Below the pieces are notes generated by a model. The model worked only from the letters and a program-made list of their open reading frames with translations. It was not told where the DNA came from and ran no database searches. Position numbers and translations under genes: made by a program. Shown in pieces: positions 23,669 through 43,302 of a DNA stretch of 64,000 bases (within the stretch, counting starts at the first letter, position 1; each line of letters opens with the position of its first letter). The stretch is from Tenericutes bacterium MZ-XQ (GTDB lineage: Bacteria > Bacillota_I > Bacilli_A > Acholeplasmatales > Acholeplasmataceae): positions 1,866,858 to 1,930,857 of the forward strand of contig CP017950.1 in the NCBI GenBank assembly GCA_002838205.1, in the 5' to 3' direction.

Positions 23669-26600
23669 TTATTCAAAATATTCAAGTGTCACGAAATCAG
23701 ATTGAAGACATAATGATGAATCTATTTTTATACCACCTGGACGATAAGATTGACTTAGTACATCAAATGGTATAGATTTACCGTTTATTTTAACTAATCT
23801 TCCATTATGATTTAAATGATAAATAATTGTAACATGAGTTTGATCTATCTTCATATTGAGCTTTAATCCATCTAATTCTTTTGGAAGTTGTGGATCAAGT
23901 ACTAAATGCTTCCCTTGAAAATCTACTCCTAAAACTTTAGATATTAATTGATTGATGTAAATACCTGGACCACTTGAATAAACACGCCATCCACCTTTAA
24001 CTTTAATATCTTCAGTAAGCAATTTATCAAAATGTTTCATCGCTTCATATCGATTTAAAAATGCACCATCGCTACTTGAGAAATAAGCATTTGCTTGTCT
24101 ATAGTCTGCATGTTTAACAACATCTTGTATCTGTATAGGGTTAATTTTCAACAAACCATCCCATGTTTCTTCTTTCTTACCTAAAGCTGCCATCGCTTCT
24201 ACAAATCGAATATGTGCATGAACATATTGCAAACTAATTTCGCGTCCAAAATTGGCTGATGTTTCAGCACGTTTAAAATAAGTATTTCTACCGCCATGAT
24301 ATGGAACTGTTTTATCCATTAATCTTACACCATCTGGATGATATAAATGTTTTTTGATTACATCATATAAATAGGAAGCTTGTTTTTGATCAAAGAGTTC
24401 AGAAATAAGACCTCTATTCATTGGTAAAAGTCTATACTTCATATGTGTGACATCATCATTAGGATGTATGATATATCTTATACCGTGATCTCCAAAATGT
24501 AAGAACCCAGCAGGTATTTTATCTTTAATGACATACTTTTGATAATCATTTTTGATCAATGCTGCTTCTTCTTTTAAAAAAGTAGCTAATACCTGATCTT
24601 TATGCTCTAATAAATGACCTAACATAAGAAATGTTTCATAAGTTAAAGCAGTTGTCCATCCACTTACCATACTTTTTCTAAGTTCAGGATTTGCTGGTTG
24701 TAATGTATCATCCCAGTCTCCATCTCCATAACTTGATAAATGTGTGTTCGGTATGTAATGCATCAAAATGGTTTGTATGGTTTTTTTTACATGATCAAGT
24801 ATTGTTTCTTTTTCTTCAGTAAATTTTGATGTGTCATAATGCGTATAAGAAACCATTTCATCTAAAATGCTATCATCTGCAGTAGCTTTCAAATAGAGTG
24901 CTAAACTTCTTATTGGCCACACAATAATGTCTCCGTGGCTTTCTTTAGCTTGAATATGGCGATAAGCATCAAACATAAACCATTGTGGCCAATCACCATT
25001 TTCAAAGAATTGTTGTCTAAAGACTTTAATTAGAATTGCTTTTGCTACATCATATTTTCTGAGCGATAAGAAATATTCAAATGGTCCTTGACACACATCT
25101 CTTGTTCCCCATGCAGCTCCACCAAACTGTTCTAATCCATGAGGCGATGCATAATGGATAAGTGCATCATGCGTATACCAATACATAATTGTATTAAATT
25201 TATCTACTTCATCATGTCGCCTATTATCTTGATCTATTGATAAACTAAAATGGTTTATATTTTCTTGATAATACTCTTGAAATAGTACCTTTTCATCTTC
25301 AAACACCAATGATTTGTGTGAAACTTTTCTATCGATTTCACCATATATATTTATGACAGCTTTATGATCCACAATATTTAAAATAAATAATGATTCTTCA
25401 AACATCTGCTCAAAAGGCTGATCAATAAGCTTTCCTTTTTCTATGTGCATATACATTTTTGAATCTGGAAAATGTTCGGACATCATTGAAGTTTGACTTG
25501 GTTCAAATATAAAAGTATGATTATCTTTATGCACTTCATAATCTAAAGCAAGTTCTTCATGTCCCATGACAACTTGTTGTGTAATCAGCATATCATAGTC
25601 AATATGATGATGACTCTTAATCTCTAAGTTAAGTTGTGGTTGTGTAAAACTTGTATAAGTTTTTATCTCTAACACATCATCATTGATTACATATAACCAT
25701 TTAGCATAATTAAATCCCATTTCATAAACTGCTGGCATACCTAATAGTTGATATTTACCATCAATATAGATATATATTCTTTGACCGTTTGCTCTTTGTA
25801 AATTTAACATGTTTCTGGAATTTGAAATAAATTTATGAAATGAGGTATTACCAATAACTAACTGCGCATTAAATACACCAGGCATAAAACTTGTTGAAGC
25901 AAGCGTTTGTTTACCAACAAAGTTATTGTTTTCACTCAATATAATATGTCCATGCATTCTTTCGACATGTCTTTCTTTTTCTTTTAAGACAACATGTTCA
26001 TGGTTTTTTGTAAAAAATGATAATAGATGATGTTTATCTTTTTCTTCAAAATAACGATTAGGATATAACTCATCTAGCATACTTGTGTTAATTGCTTTAC
26101 TTTCAAATATATCCTTTGCATAAAATCTTAACGGATGATGTTTCAAATGTTTAACTTCATTGTTTTCTATGCTTAGCTGTTTATATGAATTTTGTACCTC
26201 ATTCATAAAATGTAGTTTATCAACAGAATCATTAAACTTAGGAACAAAGTGACCATAAAATATGATATGTGTCATGTCTTGATGGATGGTTAATACTTCA
26301 CTTTGTAGTGAAGCACAAGCAAACTCATATTGATAAATTTCATTTGGCAACATATCAGAATTTAAAGCCGCTGGTTTGCCATCGAATTTTGATGATAAAC
26401 CAAAAAACTGATAACCATCAGTTGCATAACCTATGGTTTTAGTAAGTGATCCTATTTGTAAGTATTCATCATTTCCTTGGTTTTGTTTTGAACAAATAAC
26501 ATAACAATCATTATTCTTAAACACTTTATGATCGATGTACTGTGCATTATAAGCTTCATTGTTTCTAATCGCTCCACCATGCTTTATACCAATATCTTGA

Positions 26601-26965
26601 ACATAAAACACATCGACTTGTTCTTGTAGTTTTTCAGATACTAAACCAAGATCAATGAACCACTTATTATCTAATATGTGAATGATCATGTGATAAGTGA
26701 TATCTTCAAATTTTCCATGATAATATATATGAGTTTGATCATAAGAAACAGCAGAGTTACCAATAATCTTCACATATTTATATGAACCATTTTTTTTAAT
26801 TCTTAGATATATATTTGTAAACATATCTTCATGGTTTAGCATTCTTAGTTGATTAATCATCTTATCTTCATATGTGATTTGATGAATTTTTCCTGATGGT
26901 AACATATGAAATTTTAACTTGTCTTCTCCAATAGTTATTGTATCTATTTTGTGATTAACAATCAT
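23669..26965 (-). CDS. GH94 1,2-beta-oligoglucan phosphorylase (SOGP type)
   Basis: 1098 residues, the unusual length of SOGP enzymes, whereas cellobiose phosphorylases have about 800. A long N-terminal beta-sandwich (to about residue 600) leads into an (alpha/alpha)6 barrel with WGTRDVCQGPFEY and GDGDWDDTLQP. The DW(N/D)D motif is at residues 750-753, with D753 the likely general acid. Known reaction: phosphate-driven release of glucose 1-phosphate from beta-1,2-glucooligosaccharides. No signal peptide; cytoplasmic. It overlaps the GH3 gene by 4 bases; in Listeria innocua an SOGP gene also sits beside a sophorose-acting GH3. The exact linkage is inferred from family and context. Confidence 0.8.
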   Translation of the reverse strand: MIVNHKIDTITIGEDKLKFHMLPSGKIHQITYEDKMINQLRMLNHEDMFTNIYLRIKKNGSYKYVKIIGNSAVSYDQTHIYYHGKFEDITYHMIIHILDNKWFIDLGLVSEKLQEQVDVFYVQDIGIKHGGAIRNNEAYNAQYIDHKVFKNNDCYVICSKQNQGNDEYLQIGSLTKTIGYATDGYQFFGLSSKFDGKPAALNSDMLPNEIYQYEFACASLQSEVLTIHQDMTHIIFYGHFVPKFNDSVDKLHFMNEVQNSYKQLSIENNEVKHLKHHPLRFYAKDIFESKAINTSMLDELYPNRYFEEKDKHHLLSFFTKNHEHVVLKEKERHVERMHGHIILSENNNFVGKQTLASTSFMPGVFNAQLVIGNTSFHKFISNSRNMLNLQRANGQRIYIYIDGKYQLLGMPAVYEMGFNYAKWLYVINDDVLEIKTYTSFTQPQLNLEIKSHHHIDYDMLITQQVVMGHEELALDYEVHKDNHTFIFEPSQTSMMSEHFPDSKMYMHIEKGKLIDQPFEQMFEESLFILNIVDHKAVINIYGEIDRKVSHKSLVFEDEKVLFQEYYQENINHFSLSIDQDNRRHDEVDKFNTIMYWYTHDALIHYASPHGLEQFGGAAWGTRDVCQGPFEYFLSLRKYDVAKAILIKVFRQQFFENGDWPQWFMFDAYRHIQAKESHGDIIVWPIRSLALYLKATADDSILDEMVSYTHYDTSKFTEEKETILDHVKKTIQTILMHYIPNTHLSSYGDGDWDDTLQPANPELRKSMVSGWTTALTYETFLMLGHLLEHKDQVLATFLKEEAALIKNDYQKYVIKDKIPAGFLHFGDHGIRYIIHPNDDVTHMKYRLLPMNRGLISELFDQKQASYLYDVIKKHLYHPDGVRLMDKTVPYHGGRNTYFKRAETSANFGREISLQYVHAHIRFVEAMAALGKKEETWDGLLKINPIQIQDVVKHADYRQANAYFSSSDGAFLNRYEAMKHFDKLLTEDIKVKGGWRVYSSGPGIYINQLISKVLGVDFQGKHLVLDPQLPKELDGLKLNMKIDQTHVTIIYHLNHNGRLVKINGKSIPFDVLSQSYRPGGIKIDSSLCLQSDFVTLEYFE

Positions 26966-29124
26966 AAAGTCACCTTCTTTCCTAAATCTACGATTTCTTG
27001 ATAAATAATATCTATAGCGTTTCTAGCTACCTTAACAAAATATTTTTTATTTTCATGCGTCGAGATCATGTCTTTATTATAGTATGCAAAATCATCTTCT
27101 TTTAAAGTCATGGTTACATGAACTGAAGTTTTTTTAGGAACCATAACCTTCTTAAATCCTTTAAGTTCATTAACTGGTCTTGTGACTGAGAAACTTAAAG
27201 CCTCAATATATACTTGAACGATTTCATAACCATCAACTTCTGATAGATTATCAATATCTACTTGAACAAGAACTTGATGATCTTTCACGTCAATGCTGAA
27301 ATTGTTGTATTGATAATTGCTGTAGCTTAATCCATATCCAAATGGATATAGTGGTTCATTCACACTATCTAAATATCTAGATGTATAATGATTGTTTGGA
27401 TGATTTACTTGATCATATGGTCTTCCGGTTTTCATGTGATTGTAATAAATTGGAATTTGACCTACTGATCTTGGAAAAGTCATAGCTAATCTTGCAGAAG
27501 GGTTTGTTATACCAGAGATCACATCTGCAAGTGCATCGCCAGTTTCCGTACCTAAGAACCATGCATAAAGCAAGGCATCAAAATCGTCAACCACATCTGT
27601 TATGATTAAAGGTCTTCCTGAAAAGATGACACCCACCATAGGTTTATTTAACTTTCTTAATGCTTTGATGAGTTTTATTTGAGCTTGATGAATAGAAGGA
27701 TCAGTCTTGCTATGTGCTTCTCCTGATTCCCATTGATCTTCACCAACAGCAACAACAATTACATCAGCATCTTGTGCAGCTTCTAATGCATCATTTAAAT
27801 CTTTTTGATTGATTGCTTTTATATGAGCACCTTCAAAAACATCTAGCTTACTATAGACCTTTTTCATACCTTCTTCAAAAGTAATGCAATCTTCATTGCG
27901 AACTTTTCCACCCCATGGACCAACTAAATGATTCGTTTTTGCAAATGGTCCAACAAGACATAATTTTTTATGTTGATCTATAGGAAGTACTTCTAGGTTC
28001 TTCAACATCACTATGGATTGTCTAGAAACATCTAAACTTATTTTTCGATGTTCAGGAAGTAACCAATATTTTTCAAAATCCACATATATGTTTTTATATG
28101 GTTTTTCAAATAAACCAAGTTGATATTTCAAATCTAAAACACGATAACAAGCCTCATCTATTAAAGTTGCTATATGTTGATTTTTTTTACTTAAGCTTTT
28201 AAGCTCATTCATATATGTTTTAGATATGAGTTCAATATCCAAACCAGCTTCAAGGCACATACTTGCAACTTCTTCATCTGTTTCAACAATCTTATGATTG
28301 ATAATTTCTTCTGAAGACGTATAATCTGAGATTGTAACACCTTTAAATCCTAATTGACCTCTTAATACATCTCTTAACAAATACTTATTTGCAGTAACTG
28401 GTATATCTTGATACACGTTAAACGCACTCATCACCATAGAAGCACCTGCATTAACACCTGCTTCAAAAGGTTTTAGATAGACTTGTTTTAACATCCGTTC
28501 ACTTATATCAACATGATTATAATCTCTACCAGCTTCGCTTGCACCATACCCCACAAAGTGTTTCAAACAAACGCCTACATGATTCTCATGTTTAATATCG
28601 TTACCTGTCCAACCTTTGACATAACTTTCTGCCAATTGGCTTGCTAAATAAGGATCTTCGCCAGGACTTTCTACTACTCTTCCCCATCTTGGATCTCTAA
28701 CAATATCTAGCATCGGTGATAATGTCACATGCGTACCTGAATGGCTTGTTTCATATGCCATCACTCGAGCTGCTTTTTCAACTAAATCCATATCAAAAGA
28801 ACCAGCTAATGCTAAATTGACTGGAAATCCTGTTCTACAACCGTGGATAATATCATTATCAAACATTAAAGGTATACCAAGTCTTGATTTTTCAACAGCA
28901 AGCTTTTGCAACTTTAGAGTTACATGATTATCGTATGGGCCAACTAACGAACCCACTTTACCTTCTTTAATTAATTTAGTTAAATCGTTTTGCTCAAATG
29001 CTGGTCCATAATCAAACTCGCCCATAATAGCTGTTTGATATAATTGTCCAATTTTTTCTTCAATTGTCATTTGCTTCATCAAGTCAATAACAAACTGATT
29101 TTGTATGATCTTGTTGTTTTTCAT
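26962..29124 (-). CDS. GH3 beta-glucosidase (candidate sophorose-type)
   Basis: 720 residues: N-terminal (beta/alpha)8 domain with the nucleophile D267 (KGVTISDYTS), an alpha/beta sandwich with the acid/base E469 (EDQWESGEAHS), and a C-terminal fibronectin-like domain (from about 600). Other GH3 landmarks are SPMLDIVRDPRWGR and ESPGEDPYLASQLAESYVKG. It has no signal peptide. Its position between SOGP and GH144 suggests that it cleaves beta-1,2-linked glucose disaccharides or trims oligosaccharides inside the cell. It overlaps the phosphorylase gene by ATGA and starts after a GGAGACATAGC-type site 16 bases from the previous stop. Confidence 0.85.
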   Translation of the reverse strand: MKNNKIIQNQFVIDLMKQMTIEEKIGQLYQTAIMGEFDYGPAFEQNDLTKLIKEGKVGSLVGPYDNHVTLKLQKLAVEKSRLGIPLMFDNDIIHGCRTGFPVNLALAGSFDMDLVEKAARVMAYETSHSGTHVTLSPMLDIVRDPRWGRVVESPGEDPYLASQLAESYVKGWTGNDIKHENHVGVCLKHFVGYGASEAGRDYNHVDISERMLKQVYLKPFEAGVNAGASMVMSAFNVYQDIPVTANKYLLRDVLRGQLGFKGVTISDYTSSEEIINHKIVETDEEVASMCLEAGLDIELISKTYMNELKSLSKKNQHIATLIDEACYRVLDLKYQLGLFEKPYKNIYVDFEKYWLLPEHRKISLDVSRQSIVMLKNLEVLPIDQHKKLCLVGPFAKTNHLVGPWGGKVRNEDCITFEEGMKKVYSKLDVFEGAHIKAINQKDLNDALEAAQDADVIVVAVGEDQWESGEAHSKTDPSIHQAQIKLIKALRKLNKPMVGVIFSGRPLIITDVVDDFDALLYAWFLGTETGDALADVISGITNPSARLAMTFPRSVGQIPIYYNHMKTGRPYDQVNHPNNHYTSRYLDSVNEPLYPFGYGLSYSNYQYNNFSIDVKDHQVLVQVDIDNLSEVDGYEIVQVYIEALSFSVTRPVNELKGFKKVMVPKKTSVHVTMTLKEDDFAYYNKDMISTHENKKYFVKVARNAIDIIYQEIVDLGKKVTL

Positions 29125-29140: not shown

Positions 29141-30436
29141 TTACTCTGGTTCTACTTCTGTAATGCCAATACGATCTAAACCATCTTGAACATACTCACT
29201 TTGCATGAAATATGTCCATATATATTCATCAAAATAATTACTAATCATCAAAAGTGTAATTCCTTTATTTATACCTATGACATCGCCTGCAATCCAAGGA
29301 GTCTCTAACTCAAAATTATAAGCATCATAATATCCGTACTTGCCTTTAAGTCCACCAATAGATTCAAAATATAATACTGCATTTTTAACAATATCTGGAG
29401 TAAACACAACACTTCCTAATGCTCCACTTGGTGGAATGGTTCCATCATTTCTGTGAGCATCATCAGTCATACCTGAAGGCTTTGAACCATAGTATCCATC
29501 ATATCCATTAGGTCCATCTGAAGCTGTCATTCCCCATGAGACACCTGTAAATGTTCGAAAAGTATCATTTGAATCAATCGCATATTGACGATTTGCAATC
29601 GTTGCATGAACACTATTTTCAAACCAATTAACACCTTGTTCATCTTCTGTATTTCTAAAATCTATGAACGCATGTGAATATTGATAAGTAAAAAGACTTC
29701 CAAACCAACTACTAATGAATGGTTCCCCTTTATAACTTGCGGTTCTTCTATTAAATGAATTATATTCAACTTTTCCAGTTCGATGTGTTTCATCTGGTGA
29801 ACCAGCGCCTAATACATATAACAACAGCTGTTCTCCATACCAATCCCAAGCACCTGCAAATCCACTTTCAGGACGATAACTCATATAAAAACGGTTTGTT
29901 GAAGGATTGACATACCAAGTCCAATCAATGCGTTCGTATAACTCGTCTGCTTTTGATTTAACTTCATCACCAAAATATTCACCAGCAGCAATCGCACCAG
30001 CAATAAATAGCGCTGTATCTATAACTGATACCTCACTTTGACCAGCTCTTTCACCTGTTGTTTTGTTCAAAAAATGATAGTAAAAACCTTCATAATGATC
30101 AAGTTCCAAAAATGTATCTAAAGTTTTACTTGCTCTTTCATAACCCTCTTCTTCAGTAATCCATTCATATTCAACCCCGACAATCAATCCTGCAAGTCCG
30201 AAACCGACACTCGCAATACTTGATAAAGAGGCATTAGAATCATAGCGATCATTAATCAGTCCATATCCACCACTTGACTCATCTGTATTTGCTAGTTCAT
30301 AAAAGAAATCGAAACTTTTTTCCATTTCTTCTAACATAGCTAATTCAGCTTCATCATAAACTCTAGGTTCTTCTTGTTCTTTTTCACATCCAAATAATAT
30401 AAATGCAAATAAAAGTATAATTAATATTTTTTTCAT
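29141..30436 (-). CDS. GH144-like endo-beta-1,2-glucanase lipoprotein
   Basis: 431 residues from the ATG at 30436, which has CAGGAGAG 7 bases upstream; a longer in-frame start at 30484 lies inside the previous gene. The signal MKKILIILLFAFILFGC puts the lipidated Cys at residue 17, so the enzyme is anchored outside. The body fits the glycoamylase-like family (PF10091) that holds GH144: SGGYGLINDRYDSN, LSSIASVGFGLAGLIVGVE, FTYQYSHAFIDFRN, SWGMTASDGPNGY. GH144 enzymes cut beta-1,2-glucan into sophorooligosaccharides. With SOGP and GH3 beside it this reading is strong. It would supply the oligosaccharides taken up by the operon's transporters. Confidence 0.8.
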   Translation of the reverse strand: MKKILIILLFAFILFGCEKEQEEPRVYDEAELAMLEEMEKSFDFFYELANTDESSGGYGLINDRYDSNASLSSIASVGFGLAGLIVGVEYEWITEEEGYERASKTLDTFLELDHYEGFYYHFLNKTTGERAGQSEVSVIDTALFIAGAIAAGEYFGDEVKSKADELYERIDWTWYVNPSTNRFYMSYRPESGFAGAWDWYGEQLLLYVLGAGSPDETHRTGKVEYNSFNRRTASYKGEPFISSWFGSLFTYQYSHAFIDFRNTEDEQGVNWFENSVHATIANRQYAIDSNDTFRTFTGVSWGMTASDGPNGYDGYYGSKPSGMTDDAHRNDGTIPPSGALGSVVFTPDIVKNAVLYFESIGGLKGKYGYYDAYNFELETPWIAGDVIGINKGITLLMISNYFDEYIWTYFMQSEYVQDGLDRIGITEVEPE

Positions 30437-30438
30437 AA

Positions 30439-32319
30439 CTACTCTCCTGTAATTCCTGATCTGTCTACACTTTCTACAAACCATTTTTGTAATCCAAAAT
30501 ATAAGACCAATAAAGGTAAAATACTTATCAATGTTCCGGCCATATAAATGGCTTCATTTAATCGATCAGTAAAATCTTCAGCATTAGGATCTACATTTCC
30601 AAACTGTTCTCTAAAGCTTGCAGCAAACCTAGATAATTGCAATGGTATGGTTTGTGCATTTTCAATGTAAATACCTGTTAAATATGTCTCATTCCAATAC
30701 CATACAAAACTAAATAAGAAGACAACAACAACAGCAGGTACAGCTAAAGGAAGGGTTACTCGTAAAAATACACGAATAGGTCCAGCACCATCAACTCTTG
30801 CTGCTTCATCTAATACTTTTGGAATTGTATTGAAAAACTGATAAAAAATCATGATAAATATTGTACTCTTTAATCCTTGACCAAATAATGCAGGATAAAT
30901 AAATGCACCAACATTTCCTAAAATACCTAAATCACGATACATTAAATACGTTGGTATCATCAATACCGGTGCAGGAATAATAAATGTAATTAGGATTAAA
31001 ACGATAACTGTTTTTTTCATTTTAAACTCAAATCTTGCCAATCCATAACCAATAAGTGCTGTTGAAAATACCTGTGCCAATGATGGTAACAACGATATTC
31101 TTATACTATCAACTAATGCATCAAAGAATCCTATGGTTTGATAAGCTTTTGAAAAATTGTCTAAATATAATGAAGATGGTATCAAACCAACAGTCGTATC
31201 GATAACATCAGCTGGTGATTGTAAAGATGTTAAAGCTAAGTAAATAAATGGATATATAAAAGTGAATCCCACTGACGCAATTAAAATATAAATAAGTCCT
31301 CTAAATAACCATCCATCAGTACCTTTTCTACCCATAAGTTTTTTCTTTATGCGTTTAGCTTTTGGATATTTTGAAAATATTGTTTCTTTTTCTTGATATC
31401 TTGTCATGTCATAAAAATATTTGTTTCTATCAATAACGATTTTGCCTTTATCTCTATTTATGGAGAATAACAAGAATAATATACCCACAATAACAGCAAT
31501 TACAACAAAATATATCCAAACCAACGCTGCAGAAAAGCCAAAGCCTGAACCTTCTCCACCTGCCTTAAACATATAATCTTTAATCAAAATGATGATTTGA
31601 TTATTTGAGAAACCAGCCAACATTACAAGGGTATAAATCATATTGATTAAAATGATTGGTTTTAAAAATGGTAAGGTAACCTTCCAAAATTGTTCCCAAG
31701 GACTGGCACCATCAATTTCTGATGCTTCATAAACTTCTTTGTTCATTTTTTGTAACATCACAAGATAAACAATAATCTGAACACCACTAAACCAAAACAT
31801 ATAAATCAAGTTATTAAAAACTTTGATGATAACATCACCAAAACCTTCACCAAAAATAGCAGTAAAGACACGGATCACATTATAATTATTGATACCTGGC
31901 AAAATAATTGCTTCATTGTTTATCAATTCTTGGATAACTGGCCCTGATACAATAACAACTGGTAAAAAGAATATAGTTCTAAAAAAACCTTTTGCTTTTA
32001 TATCCATATTCAAGATAATTGCAAAAATCATCGCAAACACATTAATGATGACCATCATTAAAACAGAGTCTTTCACAAATGTCCACAACTCTAAGATCAT
32101 TACTCTATCCACTGCGAAAGCATACTGATAGTTTGCAAATCCTATGTATGTTAATTCAATACCTGAAGATGGTATTCTAACTTGATTAAGTGATAAAAAG
32201 AATGAGTATATGATTGGGTAAAAGGTGAATAAAAAGAATCCTACAATCCACAAACTGATAAACATATATCCTAACAATGCTTCACGTTGACGATAAGTCA
32301 CTTTAAATTTCTTTTTCAT
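30439..32319 (-). CDS. Fused double permease of a sugar ABC transporter (MalF-like plus MalG-like)
   Basis: 626 residues, about twice a normal permease. Residues 1-290 are MalF-like with the EAA loop YEASEIDGASPWEQFWKVTL (near 198). Residues about 335-626 are MalG-like with a second EAA loop DEAARVDGAGPIRVFLRVTL (near 510). A charged linker (about 290-335, rich in Lys and Arg) joins them on the cytoplasmic side. The two half-channels, usually separate chains, are thus one polypeptide. No stop codon or frameshift separates them. It overlaps the DUF5696 gene by 4 bases. With a binding protein and a remote ATPase it would make a complete importer. Confidence 0.85.
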   Translation of the reverse strand: MKKKFKVTYRQREALLGYMFISLWIVGFFLFTFYPIIYSFFLSLNQVRIPSSGIELTYIGFANYQYAFAVDRVMILELWTFVKDSVLMMVIINVFAMIFAIILNMDIKAKGFFRTIFFLPVVIVSGPVIQELINNEAIILPGINNYNVIRVFTAIFGEGFGDVIIKVFNNLIYMFWFSGVQIIVYLVMLQKMNKEVYEASEIDGASPWEQFWKVTLPFLKPIILINMIYTLVMLAGFSNNQIIILIKDYMFKAGGEGSGFGFSAALVWIYFVVIAVIVGILFLLFSINRDKGKIVIDRNKYFYDMTRYQEKETIFSKYPKAKRIKKKLMGRKGTDGWLFRGLIYILIASVGFTFIYPFIYLALTSLQSPADVIDTTVGLIPSSLYLDNFSKAYQTIGFFDALVDSIRISLLPSLAQVFSTALIGYGLARFEFKMKKTVIVLILITFIIPAPVLMIPTYLMYRDLGILGNVGAFIYPALFGQGLKSTIFIMIFYQFFNTIPKVLDEAARVDGAGPIRVFLRVTLPLAVPAVVVVFLFSFVWYWNETYLTGIYIENAQTIPLQLSRFAASFREQFGNVDPNAEDFTDRLNEAIYMAGTLISILPLLVLYFGLQKWFVESVDRSGITGE

Positions 32320-34484
32320 AGGCTTACCTCACTCACTAAATATCCTAACGCAGGAATACTTATTGAACCATTGTTATATATATCATTTGAGTAGTTTACA
32401 TAAACACTATATCCATGATCATAACCAATTCTGACTACACCAACATCTAAAACCTCTCTATCTATAATCTGATGTCCAATAACTAATTCTAAAGCCTCTT
32501 TTGTTTCTTGATATGTATTTACAATATAAACTTCTAGATTATCGTAATAAGTGGCATATAAATCACTACTAATTGTCTGGTTAAGTAAATACGATGGCTC
32601 AGCTGTTATTAAATATGATGGCATCATACCAAACTCAATCATCTTAAGTGCATCAATATGTATATTTGATGAGAAGTTCAAAAATTGAGTGTATATAGGC
32701 ATTGTACCACTGAGTAAAATTTGCTCGAAAGGAACACTATCTGTAAAAAACTTAGAACGATCATGATATAGATTACTCATAAAATAGGCTTGAGTATATT
32801 TCAAATTATAATATTGAGGTCTATACATCGGCATTTTATCTGTAAAAAGTTCCTGATAAATGTCGTATATTTCGTTTCTTTTATATATGTCATTTGAGTT
32901 AAGTTCATTAGATAATCCATCTAATGCAATACCACCACGACTCATTAAAGATTCATAAGCATCACTAAATTCATCTTTAATGACATCTATATCAACAAGA
33001 TAACTATAATAATCTCCACGTGCATGTGTGATGACATATTGCCTCTTATTGACCATCTTTAATGTCGATCCAGGAATGTTGGTAGAGTAACTATACATAA
33101 TGGTTGGATCATAATAATAAGAAACATTCAAATCATCTAACCGTGAAAAACTACCTAAACGACCATCGACACCGTAGTTATCATAACTTCGATCAGAATA
33201 TCCACCATCATTATATCCACGTAATGTATATGAAATATCAGTAACATTTTGATTTAATAGTTTCTGATTAATATCTAGAAGTTGTCCAACAGTTGTCATA
33301 TTGTAGTTGTTTTTAAATAGCAACCCTTTCTCATACTCTTTCATTAATACATCCAGTTGTAAATTAACTTGTTCTGGTCCATTAGCTAAATCTAAAATAT
33401 CATTTTCAAGCAATCTTTCTTTTAAAGTTAAGGCAAATCCTACATAATTTGCATCTTCTCCATCTAATACCGTATATCTAACTTTTGGATTGTATCCTTT
33501 AATTTCAGACTCATATATCGTAATATTTTCTGAACCTGATAATGGTTGTGTATGATTTTCACGCATCAAAAAGACGACACCCTGACTATGAAATTCAGTT
33601 TGATAAGTCGGTGGTGTATAAACATATTCTGCGAATTCAGCACCTTCTTCAATTTCAGTGAACAATGCATTTTGATCAACGCCATGAACTGCCCCAAAAA
33701 CAGGATAATTTAATGCAGAATCCCTATTACTAATCACTCGATATTTATCTTGACCATAAAATCTTGCTCTATATACATTATTAATTGCTGATGTATCTTC
33801 AAAACGAATCAGTGCACCATTCCCAGATGGAATGAAATAATAACCTGGTATTTCATTGCTATAAGTTGATCCAAATGATTCATATAGATATAATTTCGTT
33901 AATCTATTATCCCCATATTCTTCAATAGAATCTCTTAATACTTCAATGACAATATCACTTTGATCAAGTTCAATTGTAAAAGCTAAAGCAATTGCTTCTT
34001 CAACAAAATCAACGTATGCAATCACTTTTCCATCAACGATTTCATAAGAAGTTTCAGCATTCTCTGGAGTTCTTCTTTTTAAAATCGATGACGAGATTGA
34101 GATATTGCTTTTATTCAAATAATCTATGGTAATAGCTGATTGAATTCTACGCTGAATAGCTCCTGTTAGAGGATAATCATTAATGTTGATTAAATCACTA
34201 GCCCAATAAAAACCTGATGTTTTATTATAAACTCTAAGTGCTAATCCTACAGGGTTCATATAAACAATAAGTGATTCATTTTCTAATACATTAACAAAAT
34301 CGGTCATATCTGGAGATGGTTGTGTGTACACTTCATAACTTTCTTTTTTTGTAAACAAATTGGATTCTAATAAAGTAGCAGTTCCACTTTCTAAAAATTC
34401 ATAAGGCTCTTCATCAGCACGTACTTGATGACTAAGCGAAAAAGTGATTAAACCAATTAATAGAAATATGAGTACTTTTTTCAT
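32316..34484 (-). CDS. DUF5696-family secreted protein, possible glycan-active enzyme
   Basis: 722 residues with a signal peptide (cut after about residue 23, HQVRA-DEEP) and no lipobox, so it is secreted or held by other means. It fits the DUF5696 family, found in Firmicutes sugar-transport clusters. The first half is beta-rich; residues about 380-640 look like a barrel with the motif GYNDGGYSDRSYDNYGVDGR, which resembles the GH101/alpha-galactosidase-like superfamily. A carbohydrate-cleaving role is possible but not proven. It shares one base with the stop of the NHL-YIP1 gene and overlaps the fused permease gene by 4 bases, so the three are translated together. Confidence 0.7.
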   Translation of the reverse strand: MKKVLIFLLIGLITFSLSHQVRADEEPYEFLESGTATLLESNLFTKKESYEVYTQPSPDMTDFVNVLENESLIVYMNPVGLALRVYNKTSGFYWASDLININDYPLTGAIQRRIQSAITIDYLNKSNISISSSILKRRTPENAETSYEIVDGKVIAYVDFVEEAIALAFTIELDQSDIVIEVLRDSIEEYGDNRLTKLYLYESFGSTYSNEIPGYYFIPSGNGALIRFEDTSAINNVYRARFYGQDKYRVISNRDSALNYPVFGAVHGVDQNALFTEIEEGAEFAEYVYTPPTYQTEFHSQGVVFLMRENHTQPLSGSENITIYESEIKGYNPKVRYTVLDGEDANYVGFALTLKERLLENDILDLANGPEQVNLQLDVLMKEYEKGLLFKNNYNMTTVGQLLDINQKLLNQNVTDISYTLRGYNDGGYSDRSYDNYGVDGRLGSFSRLDDLNVSYYYDPTIMYSYSTNIPGSTLKMVNKRQYVITHARGDYYSYLVDIDVIKDEFSDAYESLMSRGGIALDGLSNELNSNDIYKRNEIYDIYQELFTDKMPMYRPQYYNLKYTQAYFMSNLYHDRSKFFTDSVPFEQILLSGTMPIYTQFLNFSSNIHIDALKMIEFGMMPSYLITAEPSYLLNQTISSDLYATYYDNLEVYIVNTYQETKEALELVIGHQIIDREVLDVGVVRIGYDHGYSVYVNYSNDIYNNGSISIPALGYLVSEVSL

Positions 34485-36517
34485 CAGTTCATCAGCTCCT
34501 TTATGATATTTATAACAAACTCATAGAGTTGTGTCGATAAAATACTTATGATCAAATATAGAATAATCATGATAATCATGATGAAGAAGGTTAATAATAT
34601 ATTAATGATGAGTTCAGAAAGCTTAAAGTTATTTAAATCTTTTAGAATAATAAGCAACAGTAAAACCGACCAAGTGACCATAATGATATATGCAAAATTA
34701 TAAATGAATGCTTCATTATATGTTAAGAAATTACTTAATACATCTGCAGGAATCTTAAATAGGAATACAGGAACAAATGCTACTATCGTTCCAATGAAAA
34801 TATCTCTATAGAATGCTTCACCATTTTGTAAAGTACTCACTAGATAATTACCAACACTAAATAGTAATAGCGGTACTGACCACTTTAATATCTCGTAATA
34901 GAGCACCATATCTTCAACATTATTTCTAAACAAAAATCCTCTGATATAATAATTGCTCAAGATGTTAATAGCAATAAAAATAACATACATAACTGCAGCT
35001 GTTCTAACCCTAATCTTTTGTTTAAACTTAATATCATATACCGTATCGACAGGATGCTTAATCAAATTAAGCATGAGTTTAATCTCTTGAATCCATTTCT
35101 TCTGGTTTAATTTGCGATAAACGCCTTCTTTATATCCCACATAAGAGTCATAAGCCTTTGTTTTTGTAAAGATTTTATGACTTACAAAAAGCACACCAAT
35201 GGTTATACCTATCCATAATATATTTGTACTAATCCATTGATCTCTAACTTCCCAATAAGCATCAGAATAACCTTGCTTATTATTTGCAACTCGATAACTA
35301 CTAAGTGCAAGCTCAAAATCTTCATTACGTTCATAAAATTTACCGAGTCTTGAATGGGCTAATGCAAATAAACTGTTTTGACGAATAATCTCTTGAAAAT
35401 AGACAGCACTTTCATCATATCGGCCAACTCTATATAGTTCAATACCCATTAATACTGATGAAGCAAACTCAGTTTTAGAAAAAACTTGCACATTATTACC
35501 ATTGCCGTCTAAAGCCCAAATATCACCATACTTATCTACAGCGATTCCGGTTGCTCCAGCAAATTCTCCGACTCTCATACTATTTATTTCTTGTCTACCA
35601 AACTTAAATAATAGATTCCCAAAACTATCGTGAACACCAATGATACCTCTAGTATCTATGCCTTGACTGACAGTATATATATTACCATAGGCATCTACTG
35701 TGATATCTTCATATTGAGGATCCACAATATTGATTCCTTCTAATATGTTGTTTCCTTCGATATTAAGCTTTTTTAAAGGTGTTACATATTCATTTTTTAT
35801 AACCGTATACACAATACCTTGATGATCAATAGAAATATTTGTTGTTGATTTAGGTGTTAATGATGCAAATTGTTCTTTTTGTTCTGCACTCATTAATGCT
35901 CTTCTAATTAACAACTCAATAGTTATATTTACCTGATTGACACCAAAGAAACCTAAGAATGATCCTGTTTCATCAAGTTGTATGATACCATTGATACCAG
36001 ATTCACTAACGACATATATATTGCCTCTTAAATCAACAACAACTTTTCTTGGTTCATAGATTGAATTTTCACCAAAAAGCGGTTCTGTTGGTCTACCAAA
36101 TTGGTTGATAAGTACACCGTCTTCATCAAACACTAAAATCATATTACTGGTTGCATCAGCAACATATAAATGTTTATCAGCAGTGACGAAAATACCCGTA
36201 GGTTCTTTTAATAGTTCATGCGTGATTTCTCTTTCATTTGTTGTCTCGATATGATAAATATAAATTCTAGAATTACCCGTATCCGCTACATAAACTTCGT
36301 CATCTAAGATAAAAATATCTTGTGGATTAGAAAATCCTTTGTTTAAAACAAATGTCCCTTCATACGCATTAGCTGTTCTAACATAATTACCATCAAAACC
36401 TATTGTATATGTTTGGTAAGGTACATTTGTAATCGGTGTTTCTGCGTGTGATTCAATGTTGAAACCTAACATACTTATTATAAGTGTTAAAGCAATCAAT
36501 CTTTTTATCCATCTCAT
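34484..36517 (-). CDS. NHL beta-propeller - TPR - YIP1 membrane protein
   Basis: 677 residues. A signal peptide (residues 1-25) is followed by NHL-type repeats (about 35-335; for example PQDIFILDDEVYVADTGNSR and KVVVDLRGNIYVVSESG), then TPR helices (about 345-410; YRVGRYDESAVYFQEII and ALAHSRLGKFYERNEDFELA). A membrane helix near 425-445 and a YIP1-like domain with four or five membrane segments (about 480-677) end the chain. The propeller and TPR lie outside, the YIP1 part in the membrane. Its place between ABC permeases and DUF5696 suggests that it organises or docks the uptake machinery. Function unknown. Confidence 0.75.
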   Translation of the reverse strand: MRWIKRLIALTLIISMLGFNIESHAETPITNVPYQTYTIGFDGNYVRTANAYEGTFVLNKGFSNPQDIFILDDEVYVADTGNSRIYIYHIETTNEREITHELLKEPTGIFVTADKHLYVADATSNMILVFDEDGVLINQFGRPTEPLFGENSIYEPRKVVVDLRGNIYVVSESGINGIIQLDETGSFLGFFGVNQVNITIELLIRRALMSAEQKEQFASLTPKSTTNISIDHQGIVYTVIKNEYVTPLKKLNIEGNNILEGINIVDPQYEDITVDAYGNIYTVSQGIDTRGIIGVHDSFGNLLFKFGRQEINSMRVGEFAGATGIAVDKYGDIWALDGNGNNVQVFSKTEFASSVLMGIELYRVGRYDESAVYFQEIIRQNSLFALAHSRLGKFYERNEDFELALSSYRVANNKQGYSDAYWEVRDQWISTNILWIGITIGVLFVSHKIFTKTKAYDSYVGYKEGVYRKLNQKKWIQEIKLMLNLIKHPVDTVYDIKFKQKIRVRTAAVMYVIFIAINILSNYYIRGFLFRNNVEDMVLYYEILKWSVPLLLFSVGNYLVSTLQNGEAFYRDIFIGTIVAFVPVFLFKIPADVLSNFLTYNEAFIYNFAYIIMVTWSVLLLLIILKDLNNFKLSELIINILLTFFIMIIMIILYLIISILSTQLYEFVINIIKELMN

Positions 36518-36525
36518 ATGATCAC

Positions 36526-37386
36526 CTACTTCAATCCTGAGTGACTCATCGTATTCATCACTCGACTTTGCATAAGTATAAAGATGATTAAGTTAGGTAA
36601 AAACATTATTAAAGTTGCAGCAGCTCCAATACCTGCAGCAGCCACACTATTTGATATATTGGTTAGTGTTGCCATATAAAATGCAAACGTTTGTTTGATT
36701 TCATCGTTAACAAATAAATTTGATGTTTCTGTGTTATTCCAAGTTGCTTGAAAACTTAAGATTGCAACGGTTGCAATAGCTGGCATTGATAAAGGTAAAA
36801 TGATTTTAATGTAAATGTAAAAATCACCAGCTCCGTCAACTTTAGCAGCATCAATCAACTCATTTGGTATTTGATCTATAAATTGTTTGACTAAAAATAA
36901 CCCAACAGGTATGGCAATCATTGGTAAAACATGAGCTGCCATTGTATCGACAATGCCAATTTCAGTAATGACTAAAAATCTCGGAATCATAACCGCAATA
37001 GGTACAAACATAAGTGCAAGTTTATTCACTTCAAATATAAATTTTTTACCTTTGAAATTCTTTTTAGATAAAATGTATCCTGCCATTGAACTAAACAATA
37101 CACTCGATGCGACCACTAAAAATGTCACAATAAGAGAATTGACAATAAACTTCACTACAGGTAGTCCATATCCAACAAACACAAACAAATCTCTAAAATT
37201 CTTTATGGTTGGTCTTTGTACATAAAGCCTTGGTGGGAACGCAAATAGCTCATCAATTGGCTTAAATGCAGTTGCAAAAATATATAAAATTGGAAGTGCC
37301 ATAAATACAGCAAATGGTAGTAAAAACGCATAAAACTTTAATTGTGATTTATGATATTTTCTAGGATTAAAATTAATACCTAACAT
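36526..37386 (-). CDS. Sugar ABC transporter permease, MalG type
   Basis: 286 residues with six hydrophobic segments. The EAA loop is [20 protein letters not shown] near residue 186. It follows its MalF-type partner by 13 bases and precedes the NHL-YIP1 gene by 8. It is a second, separately encoded importer channel in the same operon, in addition to the fused permease. The C-terminal LSHSGLK-type end is typical of MalG proteins. Confidence 0.9.
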
Positions 37387-37399
37387 ATATGACCCCTCC

Positions 37400-38380
37400 T
37401 TAATCGTCTTCTTTTAGGATTTTTTGGAAAAATTTACTAAATCCTAAAATAAGCAATAACAATAATACTGATAAAGCAGCAGCCACACCCATTTCAGAAC
37501 GCAAAATACCATAATCTTCTATATGGTTAATGATCATCTGTCCTGAATTTTGAGGTGTAGGATTTGCCCCCGATAATGCTACCCCAATTGCACCAGCAGA
37601 AAAAGTACCTACAATACTCATGACTGCAGAAAACATCATTTGTTTTTTAATTGCTGGAATCGTAATATAAAAGATCTCTTGAAATCTATTTCTTAAACCA
37701 TCAATATATGCAGCTTCATAAAGCTCTTTATTGACATTTAGTAACCCTGCTAATATAGCTAAGAAACCTACACCCATTGAACTCCATAATGTTACTAAAA
37801 TCATGATTGGCATTAAGTAATCTGGATTTTGTAAAAACTGCATGGGTTCATTAAGAAAACTAATTCTTAATAAAAATGAGTTGATTAACCCTTGTTCATC
37901 ACCAGAGAAAATAATTCTCCAAACAACTGCAATCGCAACACCAGCAGTCATTGATGGTGAATAAATGATTAATGCTAATAATGTTCTCATTTTTGGAGTA
38001 ATTTGGGAGAGTGCCCAAGCTAACATAAAGCTTAAAGCGTATCCGCCTGGTCCAACAACAAAACTAAATAACAATGTATTAGGTAAGATGGTTTTCATGA
38101 ATATATCATCTTCAGTAATGATATATATATAATTATCTATACCATTGAATTCGGGAAACTGAATGCCATTAAAATATGTGAAACTCAATAAAAATGCTAA
38201 TAGAACCGGAATGACAATAAACGTGACAAATAATAAAACATATGGTGCTAAAAAGATAACTGTCGTTCTATTTTTTCTTTCCATGAAATTGATGAACTTT
38301 GTCAACAACATATCGAAAAAATGGAAAACTTTTGTATATATATTTTGTAATTTTCTTTGCATCGCTTTCATATCAATCAT
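37400..38380 (-). CDS. Sugar ABC transporter permease, MalF type
   Basis: 326 residues. After a basic N-terminus of about 35 residues come six membrane segments, beginning [20 protein letters not shown]. The EAA loop is [20 protein letters not shown] near residue 218. It overlaps the binding-protein fusion gene by 8 bases. It should pair with the MalG-type permease at 37386. Confidence 0.9.
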
Positions 38381-41297
38381 CCTCCATCCAAGATATTACA
38401 TCTTCTTTGGTTGTGATGATATAAGGTCTGATTTTGTTGCCATCTTGATCGATATATCCGAACTCTTTGTATTTTCTTTCGAGTTCACGATCAATTAATA
38501 CAATTGCATCATCAACAGCACTTCTGACATCAACACCGTCGAAAACTGCTCTATTCCAAACATTAGATAGTTCACGTTCTAGCTTATATCCACCTGGAAC
38601 TTTTGGAACTTCTCTTAAGTGTTGCCACTGTTCTAAGATAATATCAATATGTTCATCAGGAATTGGTAATGTTCTAAAAGCATTTATGTTTGCTGAATTC
38701 CATAAGAACCCATCACCATATGTAACCAATAAATTATAAATGAACTCTGTTTGTGTTTCGGTACTCATCCACCATTTTAAAAGTTCCCATGCTTCTTCTT
38801 TTTTATCGCTCTTTTCAAATACTAAGCTTGCTTGGGCAGCACCTGTATAATCACGATTAATAACACCTGGTTCAATTTCATATCCTGGCGCAAGTGCTAA
38901 GTCCCACTGTGTAGATATTTCAGGTGCAGCAAATGTCAATTGAACATACGTATTAAAATTACTTACTCCAATTGGAATAGATGCTTCTCTAAAAGCATTA
39001 TAAAAATTAGGTGTTTGCAAAGGTAGACTGTATATTGTATATAAGTCAACCATTGTATTAATGCCTTCTAAAGATGCTTCATTATCAATGAGCACATCAT
39101 ATCCATCTTGAGAATATAAATTACTACCAAACTGATAAATAAATGGCGCTGTTGTCGCAAATGATTTTAAAGCACTATCTGATGATAACGGTAAATAATA
39201 ATTCATGCCATATCTTTGTAATGTTGGTAAGATTTGCTTAATTTCATCATATGTTTGTGGAACGTCTAAATTTAAAGCACTCATGATATCCTTGCGATAA
39301 TAAGTCACTGTAAAATCCTGGGTCTCTGGTAAACCAAAAACTTTTTGATCGTGAATCATATTCAAAAATGATCCAGGCATCAAGTTTCCAATGACATCTT
39401 CAAACCCTTCAAATTGTCTAAGATCAGTAGCAGCTCCTCTTAGTCCCAACTCATAAGGTAACCATGCACTTACACCTAAAGCCATATCAGGTTGAGTGTT
39501 AGCTGCATTTGCTAAAATAAGTTTTTGTTCATTTGGCATCACTGCATATTTTACTTTGATGCCAGTTTCTTCTGTAAAGGTTGCATCAGTCATTTGTTGC
39601 ATCATACTGATATAATATCTAGATCGATTCACCCATACTTCAATATCATAATCGTCATCTAATTCAAAAGAACTTGCCGTTTGATATATTTGGAAATCGG
39701 CGATCCATTCTTTAATAAGTGAAGCATTAGCTTTAGGTACTTTTTCATCTGCAGAATGGATATATATCTTATCAAGTGATAATGGCTGATTGATGATTTG
39801 TGCATTAACTAAACTTAAGATCTGAGATAATGAATTTGATCCCGTCGATAGCATGAATGTACGGTGAGGAATCTTATCAATATCAGATTTTAATACTTCA
39901 AGCTTATTCAATCCAAGTTCAAGTTGTTTTAACATTTCAGTCGATTGTCTTTGATTTGAAGACATCATGGTCAATCTATTATAAATGTTAGAAAGCTCTT
40001 CATACCAACCGTCAAATAAACCTTGAGTTTCTGGCATAAAAGATGCAATATCCCATTCGCGATTTTGATCTGTCTCACCACCAGTTAATTTCTTTAAATC
40101 AATGCTATATGCAGATATTTGATCAATAATTTCTTGAATCTTTAAGTAATCCTCTTTATATGCACTGATATCCGCTTCTATTGTCAAACTATTTAACCCT
40201 TGATTAAAATAAAACTTGTATAATTGATCTTCGTTTCTTAGCGTCTCATTTTCCCATCCACTTGCATATGAAAAAGCATACCCATTCATATCTTCAAATG
40301 GTATGGTGTTATTAATGTATATATTTCTAAATGAATCTCTGTTTTCAAAAAAACTATTTCTATATTTAAAGGTTATATAATAATAACCACTTTTTTCGAC
40401 GTTAAAATAGTAGGTTAATTGGTCACCTACTTCATTAAATGTATTTCCCATGATATTTAAGTAATTTTTTTCGCTAGCAAAAGGAGAGACTGAAGGAGAC
40501 TTCACCATCTCTGGAATCATGGATATACTGTTTTTAAATGTGTACTGCTCTGCTTCTAATGTAATCAACTCATCTGATACATCTTCACTGTTTGTTACAT
40601 CTAGATAACTATCATAACTACGATATGAACTAGCTTTATATAATCTTATGTCTCCAATATAAAATTCGCCTTGTTCTCTTGTAATTTTTATAGTATTTAA
40701 CCCTTCATCAAATGTGAATGCAATCGGATATGCATCTAAGAATAATTGATCTCTCAAAAGCATTTCTTTCCAAATAAGGAAAGGTTCGTTTTGTTCATAT
40801 ACTTGATTTTTATAAGCGTCAAACACCAACTCTTGTTCATCTCTAGCCCAAGAAGTTAATAATCTTATGTTTTGGTGCTTATCTTCTTTTATACCATTAA
40901 TTGAAATCGATATTTCATCAGGTTTGACAGAGTCATCTTCTGATAAAAAATCTAATGATATATAATACGTGTCACTTTGTTCAATATCAATGGTAAATTC
41001 TATTTCATTTGAAATATCTTCTTCCCAAAAGATGACTCTACTGTCATACCCTTTATCATCGTAATATAAAGGAAACAGACTACCATTTTCTGTTATCTCT
41101 TCAGCAGAAAAACGATAATCTTCTGTCATTAAACTTGTTTCCTGAATAAAAGGATATGGGGGGTAAATCGTGTTACCCCCCATATTATCTACATTTACAT
41201 TAATAAATTGAGATAATACGAATAGTAGAGTTAACACACCAACGATTGATCCAATCAATAGAATCAAAGTTTTTTTAAGTATGTTACCAACCATCAT
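38373..41297 (-). CDS. Membrane-anchored carbohydrate-binding-like domains fused to an ABC solute-binding protein
   Basis: 974 residues. A membrane helix (about 8-32) anchors it; there is no lipobox Cys. Two beta-sandwich modules follow (about 60-225 and 245-375). Both have the pattern of carbohydrate-binding modules, with phrases such as DTYYISLDFLS and SGYYYITFKYRN. A helical linker (about 380-500) leads to a full family-1 solute-binding domain (about 540-940; VWVNRSRYYISMMQQM, WDLALAPGYEIEPG). Binding proteins are usually about 420 residues, so this is a large fusion. It probably holds polymer or long oligosaccharides near the permeases. GGAGG lies 6-7 bases before the ATG. Confidence 0.8.
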   Translation of the reverse strand: MMVGNILKKTLILLIGSIVGVLTLLFVLSQFINVNVDNMGGNTIYPPYPFIQETSLMTEDYRFSAEEITENGSLFPLYYDDKGYDSRVIFWEEDISNEIEFTIDIEQSDTYYISLDFLSEDDSVKPDEISISINGIKEDKHQNIRLLTSWARDEQELVFDAYKNQVYEQNEPFLIWKEMLLRDQLFLDAYPIAFTFDEGLNTIKITREQGEFYIGDIRLYKASSYRSYDSYLDVTNSEDVSDELITLEAEQYTFKNSISMIPEMVKSPSVSPFASEKNYLNIMGNTFNEVGDQLTYYFNVEKSGYYYITFKYRNSFFENRDSFRNIYINNTIPFEDMNGYAFSYASGWENETLRNEDQLYKFYFNQGLNSLTIEADISAYKEDYLKIQEIIDQISAYSIDLKKLTGGETDQNREWDIASFMPETQGLFDGWYEELSNIYNRLTMMSSNQRQSTEMLKQLELGLNKLEVLKSDIDKIPHRTFMLSTGSNSLSQILSLVNAQIINQPLSLDKIYIHSADEKVPKANASLIKEWIADFQIYQTASSFELDDDYDIEVWVNRSRYYISMMQQMTDATFTEETGIKVKYAVMPNEQKLILANAANTQPDMALGVSAWLPYELGLRGAATDLRQFEGFEDVIGNLMPGSFLNMIHDQKVFGLPETQDFTVTYYRKDIMSALNLDVPQTYDEIKQILPTLQRYGMNYYLPLSSDSALKSFATTAPFIYQFGSNLYSQDGYDVLIDNEASLEGINTMVDLYTIYSLPLQTPNFYNAFREASIPIGVSNFNTYVQLTFAAPEISTQWDLALAPGYEIEPGVINRDYTGAAQASLVFEKSDKKEEAWELLKWWMSTETQTEFIYNLLVTYGDGFLWNSANINAFRTLPIPDEHIDIILEQWQHLREVPKVPGGYKLERELSNVWNRAVFDGVDVRSAVDDAIVLIDRELERKYKEFGYIDQDGNKIRPYIITTKEDVISWMEDD

Positions 41298-41312: not shown

Positions 41313-43277
41313 TTAATCTTGCATTGCTTCGTTTAATTCTAATTGTGCTTTAACAAATTCGTAATTGATTAAGTTTTGTAATTCTTGAGTCATATAATCT
41401 GCATATACTATTGAACCAAATTGAGAATCCCATAATAGGTCTCCGATTGATAATGTTGATCCTGGATTTGCATTTGGTCTTGATATAGTTGCATCAATAC
41501 CTGTGTTATAAGTAAATCTTGCAGTAATAAAACCTGGAACGAATTTATTACCTTCGACTAATACTTCTACATCACCAGCAGCTGCAGCTTCAAATATTTC
41601 TTGAACGCCATATACTGGATAATCTTTGAACCATAAATCAATAATACTTTGTACTGTGCTAATAGGAAGGCCTGAAACGCCAAGTGAAACTTCACCATTT
41701 TCAGTATCTGGAACTGCGTTTTCAATAATATCAAACATTTCATTTAATCCATCAGTACCAAATGTCATCCATTTAGCAACTTCATAAGCAGCTTCTACAT
41801 CAGCAGCAGTTTTACTAATACCATAGAAATCTGAAACACCAACAACTTTATTACCAGGAACACCGATAAATTGTACATCAAATCCTGCTGTAACAGCATT
41901 ATCAGCTCTTGATTGAGCACTCCATGTACCATCCCATTGGAAAGCAAGTGAACCGTTATTAAATGCTACCCAGTGATTTGCACCAAATCTTGCAACTCTA
42001 TCAGATACAAGTGGACCTTCTCCATCTGGATCAGTGTTATCAAATGATTCAGAGGCCCAACCATTATCCATGATTAATTTAGCTTGAGCTAAAGCATCTT
42101 TTACAGGTTGGCTATTGTATAAGAATTCATTACCAGCTAAACCTGCATGACCAATGCCAAGAGGTGATTCTGATTCTGAATCTAGAATTGATGGTAACCA
42201 GTTAAATAGATCAGCTGGATGATTTAAACCAGCAGTTGATGTACCATCAAGTTTAGTAGTGTCAGTTGCGTTTTCTACTGCTTCAATCCAATCTGCATAT
42301 GTATAACCTAATTGTGTGAAATCAGTTAATGTACCTGTATTTTCAATTAGGTCAAGGTTAGCATAATATCCTAAGTAATTTAATGCCGCTGGAACAGCAT
42401 AAATACTACCGTTATAAGTAATCGCTTCTCTTAATGATACTGGAATATTTTGCCATTCTGGATCGTTTTCAGCTACATCAGTAATTTCACCTGCGTAACC
42501 TAAGATAATATGGTTAGGAACGTTACCTGACATAAATACATCTGGGAAAGTACCTGCAGCAGCTTGAGTTGCTAAGAATTCATCATAGTTTCCAGTGTAT
42601 TCAACGATTTGAATTTCGATAGTTTCACTTTGTTCGTTAAATGCATCAATTCTTCTACGATATAAGTTGTTTTGCTCTTCTGTACCTAAGTTCCAAGAAG
42701 CGAAAGTAACAACAGTTTTATCCCCATATTCAACTGTGATTTCTCTAGTTACTGTAGTAACATTACCTGCACTATCTTCTACTGAGTAAGTTAATGTATA
42801 AGTTCCAACAACTGCAACATTGACTGTACCTGTTACTGTAATCATAGCAGTAAGATTGCCATCTTCTTCATCTGTAGCACTAACACCATTTAATGGATTG
42901 AAAGGTACTTCAAAAGTTACTGTACGATCTGCTACACCTGAGAACACAGGTGCTTCACCAACGGTAACGGAAACAGTTCTTTCTTCTTCAGTTACGTTTT
43001 TTGCACTATCCATAACAATATATGTAATCGTATAAGTGCCTTGAGTTTGGTTATCTACTGTCCCTTGAGTTGAAATTTCATCTGTTAAGTCCCCATCCTC
43101 AGCATCAGTTGCTGTTACACCATCCATAAGATCATAAGACTCACCAATCTTGATTGTGATTGGGTCTAGACCTTCAATAACAGGAGCTTCATCTACGATT
43201 GGTTCTTCTTCATCTTGACATGCAAATAAACCGAATGCTGTAAACAAAACTAAAACTAAAACTAAGATCTTCTTCAT
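41313..43277 (-). CDS. Solute-binding lipoprotein with two Ig-like domains
   Basis: 654 residues from the ATG at 43277 (AAGGAGAAAAATA upstream); a longer frame to 43343 lacks a ribosome site. The lipoprotein signal ends at C20 (LFTAFGLFAC). Two repeated Ig-like domains of DUF5011/HYR type (about 30-108 and 109-188) share DLMDGVTATDAEDGDLT and NPLNGVSATDEEDGNLT. A family-1 solute-binding domain (about 190-650) follows, with TVVTFASWNLGTEEQNN at its start. The Ig-like part probably acts as a stalk that lifts the binding domain from the membrane. First gene of the beta-1,2-glucan operon. It differs from the second binding protein, so the operon likely serves two transporters. Confidence 0.85.
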   Translation of the reverse strand: MKKILVLVLVLFTAFGLFACQDEEEPIVDEAPVIEGLDPITIKIGESYDLMDGVTATDAEDGDLTDEISTQGTVDNQTQGTYTITYIVMDSAKNVTEEERTVSVTVGEAPVFSGVADRTVTFEVPFNPLNGVSATDEEDGNLTAMITVTGTVNVAVVGTYTLTYSVEDSAGNVTTVTREITVEYGDKTVVTFASWNLGTEEQNNLYRRRIDAFNEQSETIEIQIVEYTGNYDEFLATQAAAGTFPDVFMSGNVPNHIILGYAGEITDVAENDPEWQNIPVSLREAITYNGSIYAVPAALNYLGYYANLDLIENTGTLTDFTQLGYTYADWIEAVENATDTTKLDGTSTAGLNHPADLFNWLPSILDSESESPLGIGHAGLAGNEFLYNSQPVKDALAQAKLIMDNGWASESFDNTDPDGEGPLVSDRVARFGANHWVAFNNGSLAFQWDGTWSAQSRADNAVTAGFDVQFIGVPGNKVVGVSDFYGISKTAADVEAAYEVAKWMTFGTDGLNEMFDIIENAVPDTENGEVSLGVSGLPISTVQSIIDLWFKDYPVYGVQEIFEAAAAGDVEVLVEGNKFVPGFITARFTYNTGIDATISRPNANPGSTLSIGDLLWDSQFGSIVYADYMTQELQNLINYEFVKAQLELNEAMQD

Positions 43278-43302
43278 TATTTTTCTCCTTATAATTTTTT
43301 TT

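Follow-up and report, generated by a model that had tools for sequence, protein, structure and literature searches.

In silico analysis of the 64-kb window, by which the whole stretch of DNA analysed is meant, revealed a cassette of eight genes spanning positions 30439 to about 43343. The genes are arranged in the order (SBP)–large SBP–permease a–permease b–N–D–permease c–permease d–(SBP), where N denotes the NHL-TPR-YIP1 protein, D the DUF5696 protein, L the large SBP and a–d the permease modules. The first-pass annotation had singled out positions 32316–36517; both of its genes do lie there on the minus strand, but the interval is merely the middle of the feature. Its proposal that N and D are translated together agrees with an AAAGGAG ribosome-binding site and a TGATG stop/start overlap, and the ABC permeases that it had placed beside them are found on both sides of the pair, one as a fused double permease. 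The features of the locus are as follows.

22676–23629, minus strand: LacI-family regulator
23669–26965, minus strand: ORF beside the GH3 beta-glucosidase gene (Pfam)
26962–29124, minus strand: GH3 beta-glucosidase (Pfam)
29141–30484, minus strand: PF10091 (GH144-like) lipoprotein enzyme
30439–32319, minus strand: permeases c and d as one fused ORF, 626 aa, with an EAA-type motif in each half
32316–34484, minus strand: D, secreted or signal-anchored DUF5696 protein with a GH129-type fold, predicted non-catalytic, 722 aa (Pfam, model at pLDDT 90.6)
34482–34502, minus strand: signals coupling N to D, with the ribosome-binding site at 34496–34502
34484–36517, minus strand: N, signal-anchored NHL propeller with TPR helices, one TM and a YIP1-like membrane domain, 677 aa (Pfam, model at pLDDT 90.2, structure match)
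36526–37386, minus strand: permease b, UgpE/MalG-like, cassette-specific group
37400–38380, minus strand: permease a, UgpA-like, cassette-specific group
38373–41297, minus strand: large SBP, 974 aa, with an N-terminal membrane anchor, a CBM35-like region and a C-terminal SBP domain closest to Lin1841
41313–43343, minus strand: second SBP, a lipoprotein with Ig-like domains, its true start probably an internal ATG
45788–47044, minus strand: second PF10091 (GH144-like) enzyme
47020–49371, minus strand: GH35-type enzyme

No Rfam element was found in the 64-kb window. A further sugar permease pair, of the ordinary kind, is located beside a GH31 enzyme at 6426–10152, where the N–D pair is missing.

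The NHL region of N is recognised by Pfam (E 1e-13, 50.7 bits against a cut-off of 20), as are the TPR repeats, and the confident model of the protein contains a propeller that matches NHL structures (Thin NHL) at Z 30 over 264 residues. The protein is built successively from an N-terminal hydrophobic segment, the NHL propeller, the TPR helices, one TM, a basic stretch after it, and the membrane domain; from hydropathy and charge only, this order of segments places the propeller, as a prediction, outside the cell. The fusion described in the first-pass annotation is thus confirmed by Pfam in its NHL and TPR parts, while the YIP1 part of the window copy (PF04893) lies below Pfam detection; it aligns with sister copies in the host genome, which match PF04893 at 37.9–47.5 bits (cut-off 28.6). 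At one host locus, L011 (9109–11212), the NHL-TPR and YIP1 parts occupy an ORF each, in unchanged gene order. Such split forms are frequent (also L166–L169, L171, L172, L185–L187, L190, L192 and L195) and are mostly paired with long DUF5696 proteins of about 830–1045 aa. Assignment of N to the scytonemin/ScyF-type enzymes was rejected (52.9 bits against a 350-bit cut-off).

D is a full-length DUF5696 protein, as first annotated (PF18952, E 5e-105, 352.7 bits, model positions 9–612 of 612). Its confident structural model (pLDDT 90.6, pTM 0.91) displays the overall GH129 fold, composed of a beta-sandwich, a TIM barrel and a C-terminal domain. The closest structures are ZgGH129 (5opq; Z 27.1 over 562 residues) and NagBb (Z 25.4–25.6), with the next group at about 16, and the Foldseek comparison with the GH129 fold gives E 4e-33. 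Sequence profiles identify D as a remote homologue (hhalign probability 98.8%), with about 14–17% identity to NagBb and the ZgGH129-like DagB. On the strength of these profiles and of its model, D is a diverged GH129-fold protein. In contrast to these enzymes it is tied to ABC permeases, and it escapes the Pfam Glyco_hydro_129 profile, DUF5696 being the only Pfam match of the window protein at E ≤ 0.01.

The position of NagBb Asp330, which we take to be the catalytic partner residue in GH129, is occupied by S430 in the window protein and is never acidic among 56 D proteins (T in 22, S in 20, Y in 9). The equivalent of NagBb Asp435, a catalytic residue conserved as Asp486 in ZgGH129 (PMC5698469), depends on the alignment: hhalign leads to D522, acidic in 31 of the 56 proteins and thus in at most 55%, whereas HMMER leads to N526, acidic in three. 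Columns with D/E in at least 90% of sequences are absent from the D set and number 4–18 in the GH35, PF10091 and GH3 proteins of the same loci, a comparison in which the D set is the more divergent (31% against 42–47% mean identity); a D subset at 44% mean identity has one D/E column at 95% and five at 90%. With no acidic residue at the Asp330 position in any of these proteins and no D/E column kept throughout the family, D is predicted to be a non-catalytic glycan-binding subunit, or pseudo-glycosidase, a role that we consider probable. The outside enzyme of the first-pass annotation is accordingly probably no enzyme, D being a protein of GH129 fold that lacks conserved catalytic acids. As an ordinary GH, D was rejected on the acid columns.

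A different reading takes D for an extracellular glycosidase that is active and belongs to a new GH129-related family; it would trim polysaccharide at the membrane prior to import, with N merely as its anchor. The full GH129/GH101-type fold, the hhalign pairing of Asp435 with D522, the mostly acidic positions D582 and D459 among the 56 proteins, and the activity of ZgGH129, which retains a single member of the NagBb catalytic pair (PMC5698469), are in its favour; we nevertheless judge it unlikely, given S/T/Y at the Asp330 position, the contrast in acid columns with the active GH families, and the dedicated endo-enzymes (PF10091, GH16) which the loci already hold. Some cassette D proteins could still be enzymes, in view of the alignment-dependent Asp435 equivalent. 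PF18952 also catches true homologues of the GH129 alpha-N-acetylgalactosaminidase, namely those at L173 (6233–8056; E 4e-147 to NagBb), L174 (7050–8900) and L175 (6227–8020), so proteins of about 600 aa annotated as DUF5696 may hide GH129 enzymes.

Instead of the single importer assumed at first, the cassette encodes two permease pairs and two SBPs. The pairs are of BPD_transp_1 type with the EAA motif and, together with the two SBPs, have the make-up of type I (CUT1-like) importers. EAA-type motifs are present in all four permease modules at nearly all loci, so that both pairs could in principle dock an ATPase; no ATPase gene was found among the cassette ORFs, and a UgpC-type ATPase is encoded elsewhere in the host genome. 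That the cassette serves the import of complex sugars is very likely. The C-terminal domain of the large SBP has its best PDB match in Lin1841, a sophorooligosaccharide binder, and the middle region leads to a CBM35, although the Pfam CBM35 match of the window copy remains below cut-off. The second SBP gene stands before L or after permease d, depending on the locus, and this variable place suggests that its product pairs with permeases c/d. Fusion of c and d into an ORF of about 630 aa was observed solely in the window (30439–32319) and its closest relatives L086, L088 and L089.

Permeases a and b (36526–38380; homologues at L086–L165) are the most conserved of the cassette proteins despite differing substrates. 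Over the same loci the mean identity is 66% for a and 63% for b, compared to 49% for c, 52% for d and 34–42% for L, N and D, and both a and b score far above the non-cassette permeases of the locus DNA compared. They are likewise conserved between the three cassettes of the host genome, whose enzymes differ. Such conservation may mean that a/b do not contact the variable substrate, and it lends some weight to the idea that N, D and permeases a/b form, instead of a second importer, a sensor that reads transport flux or ligand occupancy and controls the locus or the other importer. We regard this as improbable, since each pair has an SBP partner and carries EAA motifs that could receive an ATPase, a LacI regulator is already present at the window locus, and Pfam detected no signalling domain in N or D. 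Pairwise distances of all seven cassette proteins correlate at 0.87–0.97, as joint inheritance would give.

The substrate of the window cassette is probably beta-1,2-glucan oligosaccharides, because of the surrounding enzymes and the Lin1841-like SBP. GH144-type, GH94, GH3 and GH35 enzymes together with such an SBP constitute a known signature of beta-1,2-glucan use, according to PMC8861115 and PMC12369401, and a GH35 beta-1,2-glucosyltransferase is known from a cluster of beta-1,2-glucan type (PMC8861115). At 43495–45771, next to the genes for beta-1,2-glucan use, a sulfatase (PF00884) and a TIM barrel protein of xylose-isomerase-like type are encoded, a hint that the glucan may be substituted. 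Other cassettes adjoin GH16, NamZ or GH43/GH51. Near the 83 loci, PF10091, SOGP, GH35 or GH94 enzymes occur in 45 and GH43/GH51 in 13, with GH16, GH2 or GH123 at others; these proportions are biased, because similarity to the window decided the ranking of the 80 named loci.

The host assembly is a complete contig of 2.16 Mb with three DUF5696 genes, and all three loci have the same order: small SBP, SBP of ~970–1020 aa, a, b, N, D, c and d. Their enzyme sets are (i) SOGP GH94, GH3, PF10091 and GH35 in the window; (ii) GH16 at L012; (iii) NamZ, GH3 and a BadF-type protein at L011. No PBP transpeptidase match and one Mur-ligase-type match were obtained in the host genome; the missing transpeptidase makes it very probable that the host lacks a cell wall and is Acholeplasma-like. 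The Gram-positive setting proposed by the first-pass annotation consequently holds for the cassettes of walled Firmicutes and fails for this host, and the cassette occurs in Chloroflexi as well. At L011 (host genome 2079001–2099000; 347–3969) the N–D cassette lies beside the NamZ exo-muramidase, GH3 and BadF-type ATPase/kinase genes, a set which in a wall-less host suggests scavenging of peptidoglycan sugars of other bacteria. Prophage origin was rejected, as no PHROGs match was found, and a search of viral contigs with D gave no match.

Profile searches of 392 related genomes identified D in 52; N is present in 47, every one of which carries D (Fisher 2e-55, shared ancestry ignored). N is located directly upstream of D at 85 of the 100 D places of this sample. 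Seven full-length D places seemingly devoid of N all carry it on closer reading, plus permeases where the contig extends; the apparent absences arose because the search scores three candidates at most in each genome. The weak D matches of three genomes without N (G176, G344, G358) lie outside any cassette, that of G176 being the GH129 enzyme of L173, and in genome G098 a truncated D accompanies c and d, with no N recognised. Among 291 genomes of another class, D is present in 71, N in 62 and both in 61, so that N without D is found in one genome among about 680 sampled.

A scan of named genomes added 80 loci from Bacillaceae, Paenibacillaceae, Acholeplasmataceae, Haloplasmataceae, Lachnospiraceae, Oscillospiraceae and Anaerolineae; it was queried with N and is biased towards it, a bias of which the 392- and 291-genome searches are free. 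The N and D ORFs overlap in 79 of 80 loci. With the three host loci included, the complete string L-a-b-N-D-c-d is present in 66 of 83 loci (Bacillaceae, Paenibacillaceae, Acholeplasmataceae, Lachnospiraceae and Anaerolineae), the remaining ones being mostly cut by contig ends or affected by crude ORF calling, and it encloses each of the ten D copies of Paenibacillus castaneae. The cassette order is fixed across Bacillota and Chloroflexota. The recurrence of such sets in Firmicutes sugar loci, which the first-pass annotation had asserted and proposed to check by co-occurrence over genomes, is therefore borne out and exceeds chance by far, and the association of N, D and permeases is near-obligate. 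This makes the scaffold idea plausible, although co-occurrence is equally expected for proteins acting in sequence without contact. Two ordinary importers sharing an operon, with N and D as quality-control or membrane-homeostasis factors lacking a direct sugar role, would fit the YIP1 proteins that control searches found in other bacterial contexts and the capacity of co-transcription alone to hold genes together, but this is very improbable with N lacking D in that single genome and the same order kept by many lineages and by ten paralogous loci.

Comparison with described systems shows partial likeness. The gpPULs (Sheridan et al. 2016, PMC5320581) unite polysaccharide-degrading enzymes, an ABC transporter and a regulator, and the window locus likewise holds degrading enzymes (PF10091, GH3, GH94), permeases with SBPs and a LacI regulator; the term, however, covers any transporter, and NHL, tetratricopeptide and Yip1 are absent from that paper. 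Listeria innocua lin1839–1841 has SOGP GH94, GH3 and a Sop-n-binding SBP in common with the window, Lin1841 resembling the C-terminal domain of the large SBP, whereas the passages of PMC12369401 considered here describe an SBP/ABC transporter with Lin1839 and Lin1840 and make no mention of N, D, a CBM-fused SBP or a second permease pair. By analogy, the nearest functional precedent for N is YknW of Bacillus, a YIP1 protein modulating the assembly of the YknXYZ ABC transporter (PMC4887032), as is proposed for N; YknXYZ, in contrast, is a MacAB-type exporter, and neither an NHL propeller nor TPR is reported for YknW in that paper. The literature searched, with most subscription journals outside it, yielded no published description of the cassette, of DUF5696 or of NHL/YIP1 sugar loci, nor of a double importer with an N–D pair. 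The cassette is real and widespread, and apparently undescribed so far.

The whole is best explained, with a probability of about 60%, as a double ABC importer of oligosaccharides that has its own module for capture at the surface and for assembly. N, with propeller and TPR turned outwards and the YIP1 domain in the membrane, would hold permeases and surface proteins together in the manner of YknW and YknXYZ; for this predicted role as assembly scaffold we see even chances. D would bind glycan chains as a pseudo-glycosidase and, jointly with the CBM-bearing large SBP, would present oligosaccharides to both permease pairs; one UgpC/MsmX-type ATPase, with its gene elsewhere, would energise the two pairs alike. 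More tentatively, all these proteins may assemble into a single supercomplex at the outer surface of the cytoplasmic membrane, in which N bridges two ABC importers and the pseudo-glycosidase and CBM-tethered SBP provide a glycan-capturing platform.

To our knowledge, the capture of large glycans and their hand-over to ABC importers in bacteria without an outer membrane are poorly understood. The Sus-like systems of Bacteroidota also combine surface glycan capture with a dedicated importer in substrate-specific loci. This likeness is one of analogy only: transport relies on a TonB-dependent SusC there and on ABC permeases here, and no cassette protein has a Pfam match to the TonB-dependent SusC or SusD families. 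If the supercomplex exists, it would be the monoderm functional counterpart of Sus-like complexes, put to modular use for many glycans. Two unstudied families stand at the centre of a widespread ordered cassette, present in up to ten copies per genome and paired with different enzymes; DUF5696 thereby gains a fold and a candidate role, and NHL-YIP1 genes may serve as a marker for complex-glycan import loci.
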